Assembly: GCF_001969365.1 (NCBI RefSeq)
Contig: NZ_CP019312.1
Span: 3,100,001-3,164,000 of the forward strand
From: Tateyamaria omphalii
GTDB lineage: Bacteria; Pseudomonadota; Alphaproteobacteria; Rhodobacterales; Rhodobacteraceae
Direction of reading: 5' to 3'
DNA length: 64,000 bases
The notes beneath the pieces were generated by a model. It made no database searches. It saw only the letters and a list, made by a program, of their open reading frames with translations, and was not told the DNA's origin. A program made the position numbers and the translations under genes. Positions 11,617 through 48,732 of this stretch are shown here, piece by piece; position 1 is the first letter of the stretch; each line of letters opens with the position of its first letter.

Positions 11617-12459
11617 TTACTTCCCTGCCACTTGCGCCTTGATGCGCTCAATTTCTTCTTCGTCCAGGTCTTCGCCCCCGTAATGGACCTCTTCCTTGTT
11701 CCAATCGGAAATCAGGTTGATGACGGCCTGAATGGCAACCATGCCAACGACGAACAACACCATGGGCTTCATCGTGGCGGGGATTGGCGGGTCAAAGGCC
11801 GTGCCAAACGTCTCCCACCGATAGAACTTGTCAAAGGCTTCGCCATAGCCGCCATAAATCAGGAAAAAGGCGAAGGTGACGATCAACAGGGTCGAGATGC
11901 AGTCAAAGATGCGCTGCACCCAGCGGGGCACCGCGTCATAGAGCAGGACAATGCGGATATGGCTGCGCTGCTGCATGGCATATAGGCCTGCACACAGGAA
12001 CACGAAACCTGCGAGCCACAGGCTCAACTCGTTGGCCCAAAGCGTCGGCCGTTCGAATACATAGCGCAGGATGACTTCATAGAGCATGACTGATGTCAGC
12101 AACACGATCAGCATCATGGTGACACGACCGATGAAAACGGCCAGGCGGTCTGCGGCACGCCAGCTTTCAAACTCCATGCCCGCACGGCGGACGGTGCGAA
12201 CGCCCAGATAGCCAAACACCAGAATGCCAAGGGCGGCCAGCCAATCCACGATGTCGGCAAAGCCACCAAAGAGACCGCCCAGCCCCGGCGTCACATCGTT
12301 GCGACGAAACAGCGCCGACAGTTTGTCGAATTGGGATGGGTCCTCGGGGGGCACGAAATCAAGCGTGAAGGCCGGCATGTGCCAGACAATCCAGCCCGCG
12401 CAAAGGATGAATGCCAAAGGCACAATCCACTCGATCGGAGTGCCGGAGCGCACCTGCAT
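11617..12459 (-). CDS. dctQ: TRAP transporter small permease subunit (DctQ family)
   Basis: A 280-residue membrane protein, predicted partner of the large permease. The C-terminal half has the four-helix DctQ core (LWANELSLWLAGFVFLCAGLY, then RSHIRIVLLYD). The N-terminal half adds two further hydrophobic segments, so the protein is well above the usual 160-200 residues, matching the enlarged DctM partner. The cytoplasmic tail is acidic. The ATG at 12459 follows a GGGGGG run; a GTG one codon earlier is an equally possible start. Confidence 0.88.
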   Translation of the reverse strand: MQVRSGTPIEWIVPLAFILCAGWIVWHMPAFTLDFVPPEDPSQFDKLSALFRRNDVTPGLGGLFGGFADIVDWLAALGILVFGYLGVRTVRRAGMEFESWRAADRLAVFIGRVTMMLIVLLTSVMLYEVILRYVFERPTLWANELSLWLAGFVFLCAGLYAMQQRSHIRIVLLYDAVPRWVQRIFDCISTLLIVTFAFFLIYGGYGEAFDKFYRWETFGTAFDPPIPATMKPMVLFVVGMVAIQAVINLISDWNKEEVHYGGEDLDEEEIERIKAQVAGK

Positions 12460-37803: not shown

Positions 37804-39313
37804 GGTCGTCTTCCTGCCAGACGCCCGCCATCATCAGGCCAAGCCTGCGCGCATCTGCGTCCTTGGCCGCGACGGGTTCGGACAGCCGCCCCTTTACGAT
37901 GGCCTGGATACGGTCGGACAGAGCGACCGCCTCTTCCAATTCCTCGGATATCAAGAGGATGGCTGCCCCCTTGGACCGGGCCGCCAGAAGTTCGGCGTGG
38001 ACCGCCGCAATGGCGCCTTCGTCAAGCCCGCGGGTCGGTTGATTGGCCAGCACGAAACGCGGACCGATCGACAGGCAGCGCCCGAGGATCAGCTTTTGCA
38101 TGTTGCCACCCGACAGCAGGCGGGTGCGCGTGTCGGGGGTCGCGCCGCGGATGTCGAAGCGGTCGATCAGGTCGGCGGCGTAGGATTTGCACGCCGCTTT
38201 GCGCACGAACCCCCGGTGCGAGAATTCGGGGCTGCGCAGCCGTTCGAGCACTGCGTTTTCCCAGACGGCCAGTTCGCCGACCGTCCCTTCGCTGTGGCGA
38301 TCCTCGGGCACGCGGCCCGCGCCTGCGGTAATCATGGCGCGCGGGCCCAGGGGGCCCACGTCCTGTCCGGAGAGAGTCACGCGGCCCGATGCCGGTTTCG
38401 TCAGCCCTGAGAGCACGGCGCCAAGCGCGGCTTGCCCGTTGCCGGAGACGCCGACGATGCCCAGCACCTCGCCAGCATGGACGGTGAACGACAGGTCGTC
38501 GAGGAGGGTTTCGCCCTGTTCTTCGACCCGCACGTTGTCCGCGATGATGACCGGGCTGCCGATCTGGTGGCCCTGCCGCACCGGGCGCGCGACCTTGCGT
38601 CCGACCATGAGTTCTGCCAGCTCGTCCGGGTTGGTTTGTGCCGTTTTGCGTTCGGCCACCATTTGCCCGGCGCGCAGGACCGCGACCCGGTCCGATGCGG
38701 CCATCACCTCGTGCAGCTTGTGGCTGATAAAGATCAGCGACAGCCCTTCCCTCGTCATGTCGCGCAGGGTTTCGAAGAGCCGCTGCGCCTCCGGTCGGGC
38801 CAGGACGGCGGTGGGTTCATCCAGGATCAGGACGCGCGCGTCACGGTAGAGTGCCTTGAGGATTTCGACGCGCTGACGTTCGCCCACGGAGAGTTGGTTC
38901 ACCTGTGCGTCGGGTGAAACGGGCAGGCCGAACCGGTCGGCGATCTGCATGAGTTTTTGTCGTGCTCTGGCCCGTGCCGAACGCAGGGAAAGGAGGCTTT
39001 CGGAGCCGAGCATAACATTGTCGAGTACGGTCAGGTTGCCTGCCAGAGTGAAATGCTGGTGGACCATGCCCACGCCCGCGTCGATGGCGGCGCGCGGCTG
39101 GCCCGGTGGCAGGTCCTGCCCGAACACGCGTACCGTGCCGGCATCGGCAGCGTAGTGGCCAAAGAGGATGTTCATCAGCGTGGTTTTGCCCGCCCCGTTT
39201 TCGCCCAGCAGGGCCAGGATTTCGCCCTGCCCGAGCGACAGGGTGACGTTGTCGTTGGCGGCGAGGGCGCCAAAGCGCTTGGTGATACCGTTAAGCTCGA
39301 GCGCGGGGGTCAT
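37793..39313 (-). CDS. ABC transporter ATP-binding protein, duplicated cassette (BMP/nucleoside importer)
   Basis: A 506-residue cytoplasmic protein with two ABC cassettes. The first has Walker [10 protein letters not shown], signature [10 protein letters not shown] and Walker [11 protein letters not shown]. The second has a degenerate Walker A ([11 protein letters not shown]) and signature [14 protein letters not shown], as usual in sugar/nucleoside dual ATPases. It powers uptake by the two adjoining permeases. The ATG at 39313 shares ATGA with the stop of the amidase remnant; the longer frame to 39418 lies inside that gene. Confidence 0.92.
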
Positions 39314-40668
39314 GTGGGCAGTCCCGCAATGGAATGGGGGTAGGTGAGCGCCGGTGCGCGTTGTTCGATCTGTGCTGCGAGGCGGCAGAGCTGCAGGTCG
39401 GCCCCGCGCGGCCCCCACAGCTGGATGCCGACGGGCATGTCGCCCTGCATCCCGAAGGGCAGCGCCAATGCGGGCAGTCCCGCGACATTGGCGAGGGCCG
39501 CGTTCGGGGCAAACGCCTCCATTCTTGCGAAATGGGCGTCGGTGTCGGTGTGGTTCAGGTCGAAGGCGCCGACCGGGGGTGGCGGGGAGGATAAGACCGG
39601 GCAGAGGATAGCATCGACATGGGCGAACATTCTGTGCGCATCATCGGCCATCCGGGCCATGCGCTGGGTCACGGCAAAGAGGTCGGTGGCCCGCAGCGCA
39701 CGCCCTTCGGCGGCCACGGCGGCGATGAGGGGTGGAACTTCGTCGTCCGGGACGTCGAGCGCGGCGAGCCACTCGGCAAGGGACACCGACAGGATGGTTC
39801 TGGCGATGGCGTGTGCGTTGCCGCCCATGGTGTCAGGGGCGAGGATGTCTTCGATTATGAAACCTGCGTCGGTCAGCGCGGACGCGGCGGCGCGGGCTGC
39901 GGCACCTTGCGCTGCGTCGCATCTTGCAGGAATGGCGAGTGCGATGCGGTGGGTGTCTCGTCGTGGCGTTGGCAGTGTTAAGACCTGTGCGGTCTTGAAC
40001 GCGGCGGTCACGTCGCGGACGGAGCGGGCCAGGACGAGCTCGGACGCGATGCCCATGAGGTGATTGCTGAAATCGGGACCTGCGACCACGGCCCCGCGCG
40101 ACGGTTTCAACCCGACCAGCCCGCAACAGGCGGCAGGGACGCGGATGGAGCCGGCGGCGTCGGTGGCGTGGGCCAGGGCAACGATTCCGGAGGCGACGGC
40201 AGCCGCCGCGCCGCCCGAAGACCCGCCGGGGGTCAAGGACGGGTTCTAGGGATTGCGGGCCGGGGCAAGACCCTGGGGCGTGCTGTCGAGCGCCAGGCCG
40301 AAGGGTGGGACCGTTGTCAGGCCAAACGGGATCAAACCGGCATCACGAAAGGCTGCAAACAGGTTGCTGTCTGCATCCGGCGGCACAGGGCGCGCGCGTA
40401 ACGCGCCAGCCCCGGCAGAAATAGGCAAACCCTGAGCCGCCGACCCGAGGTCTTTGCCAAGAAACGGCACGCCGTGAAAGGGACCGCGACCCGTCAAGGG
40501 CGAGGCGTCAGCCGCAGCCGCACTTGCGCGCCCACGGTCCGCGTCCAGCAGGGCCACAGCACCCAGATCCGTCCGCATTTGGCTGGCGGCAAGGCTCGCC
40601 TCCATCACCGCGCGGGCACTGGTGCGCCTGTCGGAAACGGCAGCGGCGAGTGCTGTGGCATCACGCAT
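39310..40668 (-). pseudogene. Amidase-signature hydrolase interrupted by an in-frame amber codon
   Basis: One reading frame from 40668 to 39310 encodes a complete amidase-signature protein of about 452 codons, with a single TAG at 40246-40248. The catalytic triad is otherwise present: Lys in GVPFLGKDLG, cis-Ser in [10 protein letters not shown] and nucleophile Ser in [10 protein letters not shown]. The stop falls between ARNP and NPSLTPGG, where amidases usually read [12 protein letters not shown], so a TGG-to-TAG change is likely. An ATG at 40236 could allow a C-terminal fragment that lacks the Lys. The gene stays in the importer operon with ATGA coupling to the ATPase. Confidence 0.85.
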
Positions 40669-43166: not shown

Positions 43167-43577
43167 CTACTGTGTTTTGTCTGCCAGAAATTGCCTCAGG
43201 TCCATCTCCTCGCGCCGTTTCGTGGACACATAGACAAAGGCCATGTTGATCCGTTCTGATATCATGTCGCCGGGAAACGGCAGATAGCTGAGTTCGGGCG
43301 AGCCGAAGGAGGGCGAGGCCGTGCCGACCTGCCATTCCGAGGTGACGGACACGTCCACCAGCTTCAGATCCGGACCGCCGCTGGTGCAGGGCATTTCCAG
43401 CGGGATATTTGCGATTTTCAGGTAGGCGGCCTTGTCTTTCGCGTCACGAAACCCGTCGATGAATTGGGTGCACAGGACCTGAATGTCGGCCGCTTCGTCC
43501 TCGGGCTTGAGGTGGGAATGCAGGTGGTCGGCGGCGTGGTTGTGGCCGATATGGCCGTTCACGATGTCATGGGGCAT
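43167..43577 (-). CDS. Uncharacterised His-rich small protein behind the guanidine hydrolase-like gene
   Basis: A 136-residue soluble protein with no family I recognise. The first 22 residues contain seven His (positions 3, 9, 12, 14, 18, 20, 22, in GHIGHNHAADHLHSH), a likely site for nickel or another divalent metal. The rest is a compact domain containing MPCTSGGPDLKLVDVSVTSE and ELSYLPFPGDMISERIN. It begins 5 bases after the ureohydrolase stop, so it is in the same riboswitch-controlled operon. A metal-delivery or metal-storage role for the enzyme is the best hypothesis. Confidence 0.8.
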   Translation of the reverse strand: MPHDIVNGHIGHNHAADHLHSHLKPEDEAADIQVLCTQFIDGFRDAKDKAAYLKIANIPLEMPCTSGGPDLKLVDVSVTSEWQVGTASPSFGSPELSYLPFPGDMISERINMAFVYVSTKRREEMDLRQFLADKTQ

Positions 43578-43582
43578 GAGTG

Positions 43583-44848
43583 TCAGCCTTTCTTGTGCGG
43601 GGTGGACCAGCGGTTGCCGTCGCGGGCCGCGTCGTAGTCACCCATGGGCAGGTTCACCGGCTTGTCGATGTGCTTGCGGTGGTCCCCCATCTTGCCCGAC
43701 GCCACGAGCGAGCCCAGCACGTCCACGATGACGCGCGTGCCCATAAGGGCGGTGATTTCCGATTGGTCATAGGGCGGTGAGACCTCGACCAGTTCCATGC
43801 CGCAGATGCCTTCGGCCGCGACTTTGGACGCGAGCGCCAACGCCTCGCGCGGGAGGAAGCCGCCCGGTTCGGGCCAGCCCGTGCCGGGGACAAAGCCGCA
43901 GTCGATGCTGTCGATGTCGAAGGACATATAGACCATGTCGACACCATCCCACGCCATTTCCAGCGCCATCTCGGCGGTCTTGTCGACGCCCATCTTTTCC
44001 ATGTCGCCCATGGTGATGATGTTGGTCTCGCGCTCGCGCGCAACCTTCACCGCCTCGCGCGGGACCTGCCAGCCGCCGATGCCGACCTGCACGAGGTTCT
44101 TGGCAGGCACGTTGGGCAGATTGGTGGAGTGGAACCACGGGGTGGTGTGCATGCGCTCATCCAGGTCTTTTTCCTGGATGTCGGCGTGGCGGTCGAAGTG
44201 GACGATGCCGATTTTCTTGGAGGTGCATTCGGCGATCCCGCGCACGCAGGGGAAGCCAATGGAGTGATCCCCCCCAATGATGATCGGCATGGAGCCGGAC
44301 GAGAACACGTGGCTGACCGCGCGGCTGATCTGGTCGAACGTCTTTTCGATATTGCCGGGGATGGTAAAGATGTCGCCCGCATCGCACAGCGACATCTGCT
44401 CGCGCAGGTCGATCCCCATTTCATAGTTGTAGGGCGTGTAAAGCGCGCTGATCTTGCGGACGCCTTGCGGGCCGAAGCGCGTGCCGGGGCGGTAGGTTGT
44501 GCCCCCGTCAAAGGGCGCGCCGAGGACGCAGGCGTCGTAATTGCCCACCTCGGTCACGTCTTCGGTATAGGGGGCCTTGAGGAAGGTGTTGATGCCCGCG
44601 TAGTGGGGCAGCTCGCCCCGCGCGAAGGTGGGGATGGACCGGTCTTCGATGCTGTCGGCGGCGGTCAGGCCCATGCGCAGGGCCCAAGCCTTTTCCTTCT
44701 CCCATTCGCCTTCGGGAATGTCGGCCTCGGCCTGCATCGACTTCCAGCCTTGCAGCTTGGACAGGTCGGGGTGATGGGCGCGGCGGTCCGGGATCTGGCG
44801 ATCATCGGGCCGGTGCGATCGGCTACGATCCTGTGGCGTCCAGAACAT
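43583..44848 (-). CDS. gdmH: Agmatinase-like ureohydrolase, probable guanidine hydrolase (GdmH type)
   Basis: A 421-residue arginase/agmatinase-superfamily enzyme with an N-terminal extension of about 100 residues. The dinuclear metal site is H195 (GGDHS), D219, H221 and D223 (FDRHADI), and D311 and D313 (SFDIDSID); the Arg in FDRH replaces the usual Ala. The known Ni-dependent guanidine hydrolase of Synechocystis (Sll1077) belongs to this branch and is also encoded with a NitT/TauT-like importer. The riboswitch at the head of this operon senses guanidine, which supports guanidine to urea plus ammonia. Agmatine or another guanidino compound remains possible. AAGGAGG precedes the ATG; 26-base overlap with the ATPase gene. 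Confidence 0.82.
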   Translation of the reverse strand: MFWTPQDRSRSHRPDDRQIPDRRAHHPDLSKLQGWKSMQAEADIPEGEWEKEKAWALRMGLTAADSIEDRSIPTFARGELPHYAGINTFLKAPYTEDVTEVGNYDACVLGAPFDGGTTYRPGTRFGPQGVRKISALYTPYNYEMGIDLREQMSLCDAGDIFTIPGNIEKTFDQISRAVSHVFSSGSMPIIIGGDHSIGFPCVRGIAECTSKKIGIVHFDRHADIQEKDLDERMHTTPWFHSTNLPNVPAKNLVQVGIGGWQVPREAVKVARERETNIITMGDMEKMGVDKTAEMALEMAWDGVDMVYMSFDIDSIDCGFVPGTGWPEPGGFLPREALALASKVAAEGICGMELVEVSPPYDQSEITALMGTRVIVDVLGSLVASGKMGDHRKHIDKPVNLPMGDYDAARDGNRWSTPHKKG

Positions 44849-45599
44849 GGGTATCCTCCTTGAGTATCTGATAGGGAATCCCGCCATCGCGGGCATCGAA
44901 GTCGTAAGTGATGGTGGCGCCATAGGCGTCCGGAAACTGCGGATCCCACCGCACCTTGTCGAAGGCCAGAACCCGGTCGCCCAGCTTGAACGCTTCGCTC
45001 AGGTCGTGGGTGACCATGAAAACGGTCATGTTCGTCTGGGCCCGCAGCTCTTGCAGAAAGTCATGCATACGCTCGCGGGTGCCGGGGTCCAGCGCGCCAA
45101 AGGGTTCGTCCAGGAGCAGGATGCGCGGTTTTGCCGCAAGCGCCTGCGCGATGGCAAGCCGTTGCTGCATACCGCCGGACAAGGTCGCGGGATACTGGTG
45201 CGCCACATGGGCGAGACCAATACGCTCAAGCGCAATATCTGCGCGGTCGCGTACGGCCTTGCGCCGCGACCGGGGCAGAATGCCCAACAGGTTCGCCCTC
45301 AACCCTTCGGCAGCCACCAGATTGTCGCGCACCGTCATGTGCGGAAAGGTCGAATAGCGTTGAAAGACGATACCGCGGCTGCGATTTGGCTCGCCCTGCA
45401 AGGGGATGCCATCGACGCGGATTTCCCCCCGCGTCGGACGCTCCTGGTCGAGCAGCAGTCGCAGAAATGTGGATTTCCCACAGCCCGACGCCCCCACAAT
45501 CGAGATGAACGCGCCCTCGGCCACCTCGAGCGAAACGTTGTCGAGGATAGGTCGGTCCCCATATCGCTGGGACACATGTTCGACGGTGACAAAGCCCAT
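44823..45599 (-). CDS. NitT/TauT-type ABC transporter ATP-binding protein, probable guanidine importer
   Basis: A 258-residue ATPase. Walker A is GASGCGKST, the signature is LSGGMQQRLAIAQAL, Walker B is RILLLDEPFGALD, and the switch His is in VTHDLSEA. It energises uptake through the adjoining permease. The substrate is inferred from operon context (guanidine-I riboswitch, ureohydrolase). The ATG at 45599 overlaps the permease stop as TGATG. Confidence 0.92.
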   Translation of the reverse strand: MGFVTVEHVSQRYGDRPILDNVSLEVAEGAFISIVGASGCGKSTFLRLLLDQERPTRGEIRVDGIPLQGEPNRSRGIVFQRYSTFPHMTVRDNLVAAEGLRANLLGILPRSRRKAVRDRADIALERIGLAHVAHQYPATLSGGMQQRLAIAQALAAKPRILLLDEPFGALDPGTRERMHDFLQELRAQTNMTVFMVTHDLSEAFKLGDRVLAFDKVRWDPQFPDAYGATITYDFDARDGGIPYQILKEDTHVLDATGS

Positions 45600-46408
45600 C
45601 ACGCAGCCTCTGCCCAAGGAAAGAGGCGCCGGGACAGTCGCGCAAGGCACCAGTCGAGGACGAAGGCGATCAAGGTGATCCAGGCCACATATGTCAGGAT
45701 GACGTCCATCGCGAGGTACCGGCGCACAAGGAAAATGCGGTAGCCGAGCCCGTCCTCGCTTGCGATGGCCTCGGCTGCGATCAGGAACAGCCAGGCCGGA
45801 CCAAGGGACAAACGCACCGCCTGGATCAGGCGCGGCATGATCTGCGGCAACGCCACGCGAAGTGCGATGGCCAGCGATGACGCCCCCAGCGTCTGTGCCT
45901 TGATGATCTGTTCCGCGGGCAGTTCGGCCGTGCGCGCAGACAGGTCGCGGATCAGGAAGGGCGTGATGCCGATGGTGATCAGGGCGACCTTGGACAGCTC
46001 GCCCAAACCAAACACGATGAACAGGATCGGCAAGATCGCAAGCGGCGGCACCATCGAGATCACGGCCACAAAACTGTTCAGCCCCGCATGGGCCACCGGC
46101 AGAAGCCCGATCAACAGCCCGAACACCAGCCCCAGGCTGGCCGCGAGGCCAACACCAATGGCCAGACGCCGCAGGCTGGAGGCGGTGTCCTGCCAGAACA
46201 GGATCTCGCCCGAGCGACGGTCAGGTTCGGACACCAGCCGCGCCGCCGTGTCCACCAATTGCGACGGGGGCGGCAACAGCTTGTCCGCAGGGTTTGCTGC
46301 GCGCCGTGCGTCCGACCCCATCGCGTAAATGATCAGCACCAGCACAAAGGGCAGCACCATCAGGAACAGGGCGAATGGCCGTCCGGGGGTTTTGTTGATC
46401 CAGCGCAT
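45599..46408 (-). CDS. NitT/TauT-type ABC transporter permease, probable guanidine importer
   Basis: A 269-residue inner-membrane permease of the SsuC/TauC/NrtB class with six predicted helices. The EAA loop region reads AQTLGASSLAIALRVALPQIMP, with the typical GAS-x8-LPxxMP spacing. Residues 17-31 form the first hydrophobic segment. It pairs with the ATPase downstream and the binding protein upstream, from which it is separated by 42 bases containing a hairpin. Confidence 0.92.
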   Translation of the reverse strand: MRWINKTPGRPFALFLMVLPFVLVLIIYAMGSDARRAANPADKLLPPPSQLVDTAARLVSEPDRRSGEILFWQDTASSLRRLAIGVGLAASLGLVFGLLIGLLPVAHAGLNSFVAVISMVPPLAILPILFIVFGLGELSKVALITIGITPFLIRDLSARTAELPAEQIIKAQTLGASSLAIALRVALPQIMPRLIQAVRLSLGPAWLFLIAAEAIASEDGLGYRIFLVRRYLAMDVILTYVAWITLIAFVLDWCLARLSRRLFPWAEAA

Positions 46409-46417
46409 CGGTCAAGC

Positions 46418-46440
46418 CCCGCACCGATCAACGGTGCGGG
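46418..46440 (-). other. Intercistronic hairpin between binding-protein and permease genes
   Basis: CCCGCACCG and CGGTGCGGG are perfect 9-base arms around a 5-base loop. Sitting right after the substrate-binding-protein gene, the hairpin probably stabilises its mRNA or limits read-through, giving more binding protein than permease. Confidence 0.6.
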
Positions 46441-46450
46441 AGGCCTGTGT

Positions 46451-47500
46451 TCACAGCGCGCCGTCGGCGGCCATTTGCATATAAGTCGTGTCATAACGCA
46501 TCATGACGTTTGCCGAGTCGCCGGTCGTGGTCCCATCCGGGTATTCCACACCCACAAAGTCCGCGCTTGGCGCGCCTTCCCCAAGTATCCCCTTGTCGAA
46601 GAGGAACTCGGCCACGTTGACCATGGTCGTCTTCAATGCCTCCCCTTCGGTAAATGCGACCGCGTCGGCGGGGTCATAGAACATCTCGGTCGAGGCCAGT
46701 TGCGCCTTGTACCCCGCAAGGTCGGTGCCCGACGCTTCGGCCATCGCAGTCAGTGCGCCCTCGTCGCCTGCGGCCATCAGCGCCATCAACTCGTACCATG
46801 CGCCGGTCAGCGCCTTGCCGAAATTCGGGTTGGCGGCGAGGGTTTCGGTGTTGACCCACATGATGTCGATGATCTCACCAGGGATGTCCGAGCTGTCATA
46901 AACCTTGGTCGCGCCAGGCTGTTCCAGGATGGTCGACACCAGCGGGTTCCATGTCACCACCGCTTCGACATCCGGGGTCGCATAGGCCGCGATCATGTCG
47001 GCGTCCGATGTGTTGATGACCGACGCCAGATCCCGTTCGGCCAGGCCCACACTGTCGAGCCCGCGCGCGAGCAGGTAATGCGACACGGACAGTTCGACCA
47101 GGTTCACCGGCTTGCCTGCAAGGTCGGCGAGGCTCCCCTCACCCTTCAGGATGACAGCATCATTGCCATTGGAATAGTCGCCGACGATCAGCGCTGTGGT
47201 GTCCACGCCACCGCCCGACGAAATCGAAAGGGTGTCCATGTTGGTCGCGGTCACGCCATCAAATTCGCCTGCCGCATATTGGATGATGGATTCGACATAA
47301 TCGTTGATCTGCACGATCTCGACGTCGATCTCGTACTTGTTGGCCCACTTGTCCATGATCCCGCTTTCTTCGAGATAGCCCCAAGGCATCCAACCCACAT
47401 AGATCGACCAGGCGACCTTGAATTCGGTCTTTTCCTGCGCGACGGCACCGAATGTTGTCAGCGTAAGTGCCAGGGTAGCGAAAACAGTTGAACGGATCAT
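46451..47500 (-). CDS. NitT/TauT-type ABC transporter substrate-binding protein, probable guanidine-binding
   Basis: A 349-residue periplasmic protein with a signal peptide (residues 1-20, ending GAVAQ). WSIYVGWMPWGYLEESGIMDKWA near the start, split as WSIYVGWMPWGYLEES and GIMDKWA, and AAGEFDGVTATNMDTL are typical of NMT1/SsuA-like binding proteins. It is the first gene behind the guanidine-I riboswitch, so guanidine or a guanidino compound is the likely ligand. The ATG at 47500 follows GGAGGATGAT; upstream in-frame ATGs lie inside the leader. Confidence 0.9.
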   Translation of the reverse strand: MIRSTVFATLALTLTTFGAVAQEKTEFKVAWSIYVGWMPWGYLEESGIMDKWANKYEIDVEIVQINDYVESIIQYAAGEFDGVTATNMDTLSISSGGGVDTTALIVGDYSNGNDAVILKGEGSLADLAGKPVNLVELSVSHYLLARGLDSVGLAERDLASVINTSDADMIAAYATPDVEAVVTWNPLVSTILEQPGATKVYDSSDIPGEIIDIMWVNTETLAANPNFGKALTGAWYELMALMAAGDEGALTAMAEASGTDLAGYKAQLASTEMFYDPADAVAFTEGEALKTTMVNVAEFLFDKGILGEGAPSADFVGVEYPDGTTTGDSANVMMRYDTTYMQMAADGAL

Positions 47501-47501
47501 A

Positions 47502-47541
47502 TCATCCTCCAGATACATAAAATTCATACGACCGAAGATGA
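47502..47541 (-). promoter_or_regulatory. Candidate Shine-Dalgarno-masking hairpin (riboswitch expression platform)
   Basis: In the leader RNA, UCAUCUUC (47534-47541) can pair over 8 bases, with one G-U, to GAGGAUGA (47502-47509), which contains the ribosome-binding site of the binding-protein gene. No U-tract terminator follows the aptamer, so control of translation is more likely than attenuation. The pairing is visible in the sequence; its link to ligand binding is inferred. Confidence 0.45.
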
Positions 47542-47560
47542 AAGTGAGAGACGCGGCCGA

Positions 47561-47692
47561 ACCGTCGCAGTGCTCTCCCGGGATTTTGCCCCGCCGTGTA
47601 CCGTCCGGAATTTGCCGGATCGGCGGCACCTCTCGGACCAGCCCTGCCATATGCGACAGGCGGAACCCTAGGTGCCCTGCGCTTGCGACGGT
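47561..47692 (-). promoter_or_regulatory. Guanidine-I riboswitch (ykkC family, subtype 1)
   Basis: Read on the minus strand, the three conserved blocks of the ykkC aptamer occur in order: CUAGGGUUCCG (47671-47661), CUGGUCCGAGAG (47642-47631), and ACACGGCGGGG...UCCCGGGAGAG (47599-47573). Outer arms ACCGTCGCA (47692-47684) and TGCGACGGT (47569-47561) pair perfectly, and internal helices GGCAC/GUGCC and CCGG/CCGG fit the known fold. Guanidine-I riboswitches bind guanidinium and turn on detoxification or assimilation genes. It lies 60 bases upstream of the importer-ureohydrolase operon. Confidence 0.95.
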
Positions 47693-47842: not shown

Positions 47843-47869
47843 AAAAAAACCCGGGCACTCAGGCCCGGG
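47843..47869 (-). terminator. Rho-independent terminator after the response-regulator transcript
   Basis: On the minus strand CCCGGGC and GCCCGGG pair around a 6-base loop and are followed directly by seven T. This separates the regulator transcript from the guanidine leader downstream. Confidence 0.9.
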
Positions 47870-47980
47870 CAAGTCCAACAGGGAGGTGCATGTTTCGCCG
47901 CGAGGCGGCCCCGACATGCGCGGGCTTCGTGTACGTAACATCGGTCAAAGTGGATGGTTCCGCTTTGACCCACGTCAATG
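47843..47980 (-). ncRNA. Structured 3' UTR, possible 3'-UTR-derived small RNA
   Basis: The 138 bases after the regulator stop form, in order on the minus strand, an 11-base-pair hairpin (47943-47970), a GCCGC/GCGGC hairpin (47897-47909), an unpaired CACCUCCC (47888-47881) and the strong terminator. An exposed anti-Shine-Dalgarno CCUCC between hairpins resembles the C-rich loops of Rhodobacter small RNAs. No promoter is evident, so it would arise by processing. Expression is unproven. Confidence 0.4.
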
Positions 47981-48667
47981 TCACGCAATAAGACGATATC
48001 CGCCGCTTTCGGTCACAAGAAGGCGCGCATTGGACGGATCTGGTTCGATTTTCTGGCGCAACCGGTAAATGTGCGTCTCCAGCGTGTGGGTCGTGACGCC
48101 TGCGTTGTAGCCCCAGACTTCGTGCAAGAGCACGTCGCGCGCCACCACGCCTTCGGTCGAGCGATAGAGGAACTTGAGGATGTTCGTCTCTTTCTCGGTC
48201 AGGCGTATTTTGCGGTCGTCTTCGGTGATCAGCATCTTGACCGACGGTTTGAACGTGTACGGCCCGAGGGTGAACACCGCGTCTTCGGACTGTTCGTGCT
48301 GGCGCAGTTGCGCGCGGATGCGGGCCAGCAAGACGGGGAACTTGAAAGGCTTGGACACATAGTCATTGGCGCCCGCATCGAGGCCCAGGATCGTGTCGGC
48401 GTCCGTATCGTGGCCGGTCAGCATCAGGATGGGCGACTTGACCCCCTGCTTGCGCATCACGCGACACAGTTCGCGGCCGTCCGTGTCCGGCAGGCCGACG
48501 TCAAGGATCACGAGGTCGTAAATCGCCTCCTTGGCCTTGACCAACGCGTCCTGGCCGTTGCCGGCCTCGAACACGTCGAAATCTTCGGTCATGACAAGCT
48601 GTTCGCTGAGCGCCTCGCGCAGATCCTCGTCATCGTCGACCAGAAGGATTTTCTTCAATTGTGCCAT
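47981..48667 (-). CDS. OmpR-family response regulator
   Basis: A 228-residue two-component regulator. The receiver domain has the acidic pocket DDDED (11-15), phospho-acceptor D56 (LVILDVGLP), the switch Thr in LMLTGHD and Lys in VSKPFKFP. The C-terminal winged helix includes RLTEKETNILKFLYR and TTHTLETHIYRLRQKIE. No sensor kinase adjoins, so it is an orphan here. The overall sequence resembles the CenR-type regulators of Rhodobacterales, which affect envelope growth; this is from memory of the family and not certain. The ATG at 48667 gives the standard start. Confidence 0.9.
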   Translation of the reverse strand: MAQLKKILLVDDDEDLREALSEQLVMTEDFDVFEAGNGQDALVKAKEAIYDLVILDVGLPDTDGRELCRVMRKQGVKSPILMLTGHDTDADTILGLDAGANDYVSKPFKFPVLLARIRAQLRQHEQSEDAVFTLGPYTFKPSVKMLITEDDRKIRLTEKETNILKFLYRSTEGVVARDVLLHEVWGYNAGVTTHTLETHIYRLRQKIEPDPSNARLLVTESGGYRLIA

Positions 48668-48732
48668 GGGTCTCGTCTCCCTTGATGTTGCAGGATAGAT
48701 GCGGTCGCGCAGCGGTTTCAGCAAGTTGTGGA

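Follow-up and report, generated by a model that had tools for sequence, protein, structure and literature searches.

A probable riboswitch-controlled operon for guanidine import and hydrolysis in Tateyamaria omphalii, ending in a candidate nickel partner of the hydrolase

We analysed a 64,000-nucleotide stretch of the Tateyamaria omphalii genome (NCBI RefSeq assembly GCF_001969365.1, contig NZ_CP019312.1, positions 3,100,001 to 3,164,000 of the forward strand; hereafter the window) and found a five-gene operon that is very likely to serve the riboswitch-controlled import and hydrolysis of guanidine for nitrogen. Pathways of this kind have been described in cyanobacteria and comammox Nitrospira, and what is new here is a small histidine (His)-rich protein encoded by the last gene. 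We give about an even chance to the view, drawn from its His richness and its linkage, that this protein serves the guanidinase specifically, delivering nickel to it or holding nickel for it. The features of the operon are as follows.

47561..47692, minus strand: guanidine-I riboswitch aptamer with a 9-bp closing helix (RF00442 match at 47682-47573)
46451..47500, minus strand: NitT/TauT-type periplasmic binding protein (TIGR03427)
45599..46408, minus strand: ATP-binding cassette (ABC) permease, TauC/SsuC-like (PF00528)
44823..45602, minus strand: ABC ATPase (PF00005)
43583..44848, minus strand: predicted guanidine hydrolase of the GdmH clade, 421 residues (from homology, tree and residues)
43167..43577, minus strand: His-rich protein of an unnamed family, 136 residues, proposed nickel partner (from linkage and His content)

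In the scheme that we propose, guanidine entering the cell would be bound by the leader aptamer, allowing expression of the operon. More guanidine would then be taken up by the ABC importer, formed by the binding protein, permease and ATPase. The Ni-dependent GdmH-type enzyme would hydrolyse this guanidine, giving urea plus ammonia, and the urease of the genome would break the urea down to CO2 and two further molecules of ammonia, making guanidine a nitrogen source. The flexible His tail of the last protein may bind Ni2+ and deliver it to the hydrolase, or hold it for this enzyme, replacing chaperones of the HypA/HypB type.

The leader carries a guanidine-I aptamer with a closing helix, as the original prediction had claimed. 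The Rfam model RF00442, the search named there as a check, matched the window over its full length (model positions 1-107 of 107) with 80.6 bits (E 9.2e-13), above the cut-off of 63, and this was the single match at E 0.001 in the 4.3-Mb genome. The closing helix is perfect over 9 bases, ACCGTCGCA (47692-47684) pairing with TGCGACGGT (47569-47561), and was also paired in the minimum free energy fold. As the fold energy of the whole leader was unremarkable (z -1.02; 27 of 200 shuffles were equally stable), the aptamer call depends on the Rfam match. For comparison, we used a class sample of 385 genomes from the window's class and a phylum sample of 398 genomes, having 11 and 7 guanidinase carriers, respectively; two carriers were common to both, giving 16 in total. 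A riboswitch above the Rfam cut-off was observed upstream of the operon in 12 of these 16 genomes, while the score was below it in three and the contig ended at the operon in one. We also assembled a plasmid set of 11 records that have the enzyme at E 1e-120, of which seven are alphaproteobacterial and two of the other four are from Rubrobacter; the riboswitch was present in all five of the seven alphaproteobacterial loci that were scanned. In the guanidine-I class, guanidine switches the operon on (PMC11410670, PMC12186494), and by analogy with what is published for this class guanidine would activate expression of the present operon, both in direction and in mechanism. A conserved terminator-like hairpin pairing the GGGAGA block of the aptamer was considered and rejected, as 10 leaders did no better than shuffled downstream sequence.

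By homology, the enzyme encoded by the fourth gene is a guanidine hydrolase. Among proteins of known structure it matched 7ESR/7OI1, which we take to be Synechocystis GdmH (PDB name 'Probable agmatinase 2'), with 555 bits, and 9FEK, presumably the Nitrospira guanidinase (PDB name 'Putative agmatinase 2'), with 552 bits; the next match, proclavaminate amidinohydrolase, scored 177 bits. The 9FEK segment was 100% identical to Nitrospira loci. Scores of the enzyme against the agmatinase models of NCBI fell below their cut-offs (171.5 versus 174.3 and 207.3 versus 302 bits). We built a tree of 31 rows, consisting of the window enzyme, 23 further guanidinase rows, including two characterised enzymes, and seven other ureohydrolases (four from the enzyme's own genome). 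The window enzyme and the 23 guanidinase rows were split from the seven others with support of 99/99, and the ten alphaproteobacterial rows made up one side of a branch supported at 93/86. The outgroup branches are long, and the branching among the other ureohydrolases was not used except for one grouping given below. The GdmH assignment made from the letters therefore holds in the tree that had been proposed to check it: the enzyme groups with GdmH, apart from the agmatinase-like and guanidinobutyrase-like proteins of its own genome and apart from the guanidinobutyrase, guanidinopropionase and proclavaminate amidinohydrolase of known structure.

The key residues agree with this placement. From the alignment, the metal ligands H195, D219, H221, D223, D311 and D313 are retained, and so are the specificity residues T118 and W325, as well as H234 and E355. 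These positions were read from the motifs GDHS, FDRH, TTYR, FDID and TGWP, and the PDB chain numbers equal the numbers of the papers plus 2. The roles of the metal ligands and of the Thr/Trp pair in guanidine specificity are those described for guanidinases (PMC11410670). Guanidine hydrolysis and nickel use by the window enzyme are predicted.

The five genes, all on the minus strand with the coordinates and the order (importer, enzyme, small protein) first read from the sequence, are closely packed. The permease and ATPase genes overlap by 4 nt, given the ATPase start at the GTG at 45602, the ATPase and enzyme genes overlap by 26 nt, and the gap between the enzyme and the small-protein gene is 5 nt; these overlaps and short gaps are consistent with one operon. 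The five-gene order is kept in 15 of the 16 guanidinase genomes. The binding protein scored 518.8 bits against TIGR03427 ('putative urea ABC transporter substrate-binding protein'), above the cut-off of 333.9 bits, and guanidine is the predicted substrate of the importer. A possible ATPase-guanidinase fusion among the database matches (P0194) was dropped, being probably a frame-shifted read-through at the junction.

The genome can also account for the fate of the urea. It encodes one copy of the urease alpha subunit, and urease was present in all 16 guanidinase genomes. The best match of TIGR02712 (1201 positions) to the genome scored 555.7 against a cut-off of 1303.85 and covered positions 1-441 only, so that no full-length urea or guanidine carboxylase was found. 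This agrees with the earlier statement that no urea-carboxylase route is involved, for which carboxyguanidine deiminase (PF09347) was not searched for. The aptamer, the clade of the enzyme, the urease and the lack of a full-length carboxylase together support the proposal that guanidine is used here as a nitrogen source.

The last gene of the operon, which the original prediction listed simply as a small protein, is the part explained least, and it belongs to a family without a name. The 136-residue protein had no match in Pfam (E 0.01), NCBIfam (E 0.001) or the PDB, nor did the profile built from 124 rows of its family match the PDB. Pfam searches of these 124 members gave scattered weak matches only, the best being a Zip transporter model in seven members with E 0.039 at best. 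The HypA and HypB profiles (PF01155 and TIGR00073) did not match the window protein, and PF01155 was absent from the 12 families seen at E up to 1 among the 124 members. A total of 1391 relatives were found at E 0.001; the named ones among the best 120 are called 'hypothetical protein' or 'uncharacterized', and the nearest of them, at 91%, is from Tateyamaria, in keeping with the Roseobacter-group label given to the DNA beforehand. The structure model built from 124 sequences, which superseded one from 32 near relatives (pLDDT, the predicted local distance difference test score, 73), has a confidently predicted core, and structure comparison of this model gave no clear fold match in the PDB.

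The N-terminus preceding the core is rich in His in nearly all members. Homologue statistics were taken from the 120 best matches out of 1391 in one search and out of 2067 in another; every one of the 230 homologues scored carries 5 or more His ahead of the core, with a median of 8 and a maximum of 26, the other 10 of the 240 listed lying outside the search pattern. H12 is conserved in 99% of 124 aligned rows, H18 in 93% and H22 in 91%, and D48 and L73 are invariant in these rows. In divergent members the sequence of the tail is altered yet still His-rich, and the copy in Sinorhizobium fredii NGR234 has 17 His within about the first 35 residues. The megaplasmid of this strain (L158, pNGR234b 382790-397974) carries the riboswitch and all five genes.

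Next to the guanidinase, this protein is found with great regularity in Alphaproteobacteria. In the class sample, 13 genomes have the small protein and 11 have the guanidinase, and the two are adjacent and on the same strand in 11 of 11. In the phylum sample, both genes occur side by side in the same seven genomes, which all belong to the window's class, so that the small protein adjoins the guanidinase in 16 of the 16 alphaproteobacterial guanidinase genomes sampled. The two class-sample genomes having the small protein without a guanidinase (G125 and G365) appear to hold remnants or assembly artefacts, namely a fragment interrupted by an in-frame stop and, behind a riboswitch, a binding protein that is cut short and continues into the small protein. 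On alphaproteobacterial plasmids, the small protein adjoins the enzyme in seven of seven copies; a plain tblastn search with the window protein recovered two of these seven, and the rest required a profile. The protein was absent from both Rubrobacter plasmid records examined and from all 80 guanidinase loci of other groups, which by their titles are from Nitrospira, Chloroflexi, Actinobacteria, Entotheonella and one metagenome-assembled genome called Nitrosospira, and 76 of which include at least 1 kb of downstream DNA. Genome G460 has the guanidinase and the His-rich protein straight after the riboswitch, with no such importer genes in the 17 kb examined and one other ABC ATPase match more than 5 kb away. 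This single case suggests that the partner of the His-rich protein is the enzyme and not the importer.

Several nickel proteins, including HypB, UreE and SlyD, have a flexible His-rich terminal stretch. The small protein has a similar terminus but differs in having no Pfam or NCBIfam profile match and no clear PDB fold match. Nickel chaperones are described as activating GdmH as well as the related enzymes MefH and DmgH (PMC11399263, PMC12186494); activation of the related Ni ureohydrolases required HypA/HypB (PMC11399263), and hypA and hypB are located in cyanobacterial guanidinase clusters (PMC8390497, PMC10119275). We observed no HypA in 8 of the 11 guanidinase genomes of the class sample, including the window's genome (it was found in three), and no HypB above the cut-off in 12 of the 16, again including the window's genome (it was found in four). 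Where HypA or HypB was found, it was never on the guanidinase contig. Below the cut-off, HypB-like matches that are probably UreG lie near urease in the window's genome and in others. That the last gene founds a new nickel-delivery family, with a His tail on a core whose fold the PDB does not yet contain, and that this family matures the guanidine hydrolase of Alphaproteobacteria independently of HypA/HypB, is a tentative proposal to which we give slightly less than an even chance.

Several observations weigh against these readings. The operon is patchy, being present in 11 of the 385 class genomes and absent from four listed genomes of the window's own family, and the His statistics come from a limited part of the matches. 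In the 10 leaders compared, no expression platform could be distinguished from shuffled sequence, so the view that guanidine switches this operon on rests on the literature for the class. One small protein adjoining a guanidinase (L039) has a single His before the core, in a genome having no HypA match, no HypB above the cut-off and no obvious substitute. Two others (L037 and L038) have 4 and 3 His before the core; both HypA and HypB are present in their genomes. Finally, the guanidinase loci of Nitrospira and Actinomycetota, which have no small protein, gave only weak HypB matches that are probably UreG, which argues that a neighbouring chaperone is not always required. The fit between the His tail and the absence of chaperones is therefore suggestive, not clean.

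We also asked whether the small protein simply takes the place of HypA/HypB throughout the bacteria, and found no such clean exchange. With single E. coli sequences as queries in 100 loci (80 non-alphaproteobacterial and 20 alphaproteobacterial), HypA gave no match, although divergent copies may escape such a search, and HypB gave weak matches in 14 loci (22-40 bits, probably UreG). Hence, the chaperone contrast drawn here is with cyanobacteria as the papers describe them and not with every lineage.

The same data bear on a different role for the His-rich protein, which might be a structural or regulatory subunit or a stabiliser of the hydrolase, its tail being incidental or a metal store and the Ni coming from urease chaperones or the free pool. 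The conservation of the core in all aligned members, including the invariant D48 and L73, while the number of His before it varies from 1 to 26, would suit such a role; so would the probable UreG near urease and the comammox guanidinases, which are described without Ni chaperone genes nearby (PMC11410670). It explains less readily why nearly all members are His-rich, with three tail His in more than 90% of the 124 rows, and why the divergent tails change in sequence and remain His-rich. We consider this explanation unlikely, though a serious one, beside a nickel partner.

A second alternative concerns the substrate, which could be a substituted guanidine (methylguanidine, guanidino acids or agmatine), with guanidine not the main one. 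The ureohydrolase superfamily has many substrates, and one reported guanidine-riboswitch operon includes genes for methylguanidine demethylation (PMC12508155). The window enzyme, however, lies in the clade of the characterised guanidinases and has the identical Thr/Trp pair, and its genome has separate genes of the agmatinase-like and guanidinobutyrase-like kinds. An agmatinase-like protein scores 355 bits to 4DZ4, and a guanidinobutyrase-like gene (L002), which groups with 3NIO at 99/97, adjoins the gene of that protein. The roles of agmatinase and guanidinobutyrase thus seem to be already filled elsewhere in the genome, and we regard a substituted substrate as quite improbable. The ureohydrolase genes L003 and L002 stand in tandem (G000:C1:1269247-1270984), one being agmatinase-like and the other guanidinobutyrase-like. 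There is only a slight chance that the operon detoxifies guanidine instead of supplying nitrogen. Guanidine riboswitches do also govern exporters that reduce toxic levels (PMC7736828, PMC12186494), but here an ABC importer with a binding protein is present in 15 of the 16 genomes and urease in all 16.

Use of guanidine for nitrogen through this operon can be compared with three described systems. The gdmH operon of Synechocystis PCC 6803 (Sll1077) has the same riboswitch class, a TauABC-like importer and a GdmH-clade enzyme (PMC8390497, PMC12186494), whereas the window operon ends in an unrelated His-rich protein. The cyanobacterial clusters hold hypA and hypB homologues; in the window's genome, neither a match to HypA nor one to HypB above the cut-off was seen. 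In the comammox organism Nitrospira inopinata, a guanidine-I riboswitch precedes a guanidinase of the GdmH type whose key residues are those of the window enzyme, but the predicted importer is an APC permease and no Ni chaperone is described nearby (PMC11410670). The metformin and dimethylguanidine hydrolases MefH and DmgH are likewise Ni-dependent ureohydrolases with Ni chaperones within their operon (PMC11399263). They differ in being heteromeric and in having true HypA/HypB, and they score at most 134 bits to the window enzyme.

Judged by titles and the start of abstracts, we found no paper on alphaproteobacterial guanidinase operons or on the His-rich protein, although a mention in Funck 2022 or Sinn 2021 is possible; the nearest literature, judged in the same way, is on the metformin hydrolases of Aminobacter. 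If the proposed pathway is true, guanidine hydrolysis as a nitrogen source extends to Alphaproteobacteria, including the directly testable Sinorhizobium fredii NGR234. If the nickel role is true, there is a candidate nickel route to the guanidinase where chaperones of the cyanobacterial type are missing, and a family of some 1400 'hypothetical' or 'uncharacterized' members gains a testable function. A new family in the proposed sense would be a second evolutionary solution for loading a nickel ureohydrolase.

Outside the operon, we noted a SorX small RNA (RF02784, 65 bits) at 47843-47926 on the minus strand; it lies between the guanidine operon and an OmpR-type response regulator gene (47981-48673), which it directly follows. 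After the operon, also on the minus strand, the segment 35822-43022 holds genes for a cytosine deaminase, a BMP-type binding protein, a split amidase, an ABC ATPase and two putative permease-like proteins; these are perhaps a second nitrogen-scavenging (nucleobase) cluster. The amidase gene (39310-40668) is apparently split into the frames 40668-40246 and 40236-39310, by a frameshift, as a pseudogene or through a sequencing error. Its second piece matches Pfam Amidase, and the assignment of the first piece is our own reading.

Among the plasmid records, that of Rubrobacter indicoceani (L160, NZ_CP031116.1) carries, on a single strand, a guanidine-I riboswitch and the genes of a guanidinase and of a sodium:solute symporter, and the symporter is perhaps another solution for import. 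A formamidase gene on the opposite strand and urease genes adjoin this guanidinase cluster. The 5' ureB small RNA family (RF02514) matched at 12157-12446 of this locus and at 1865-2149 of locus L034, both of which hold a guanidinase.

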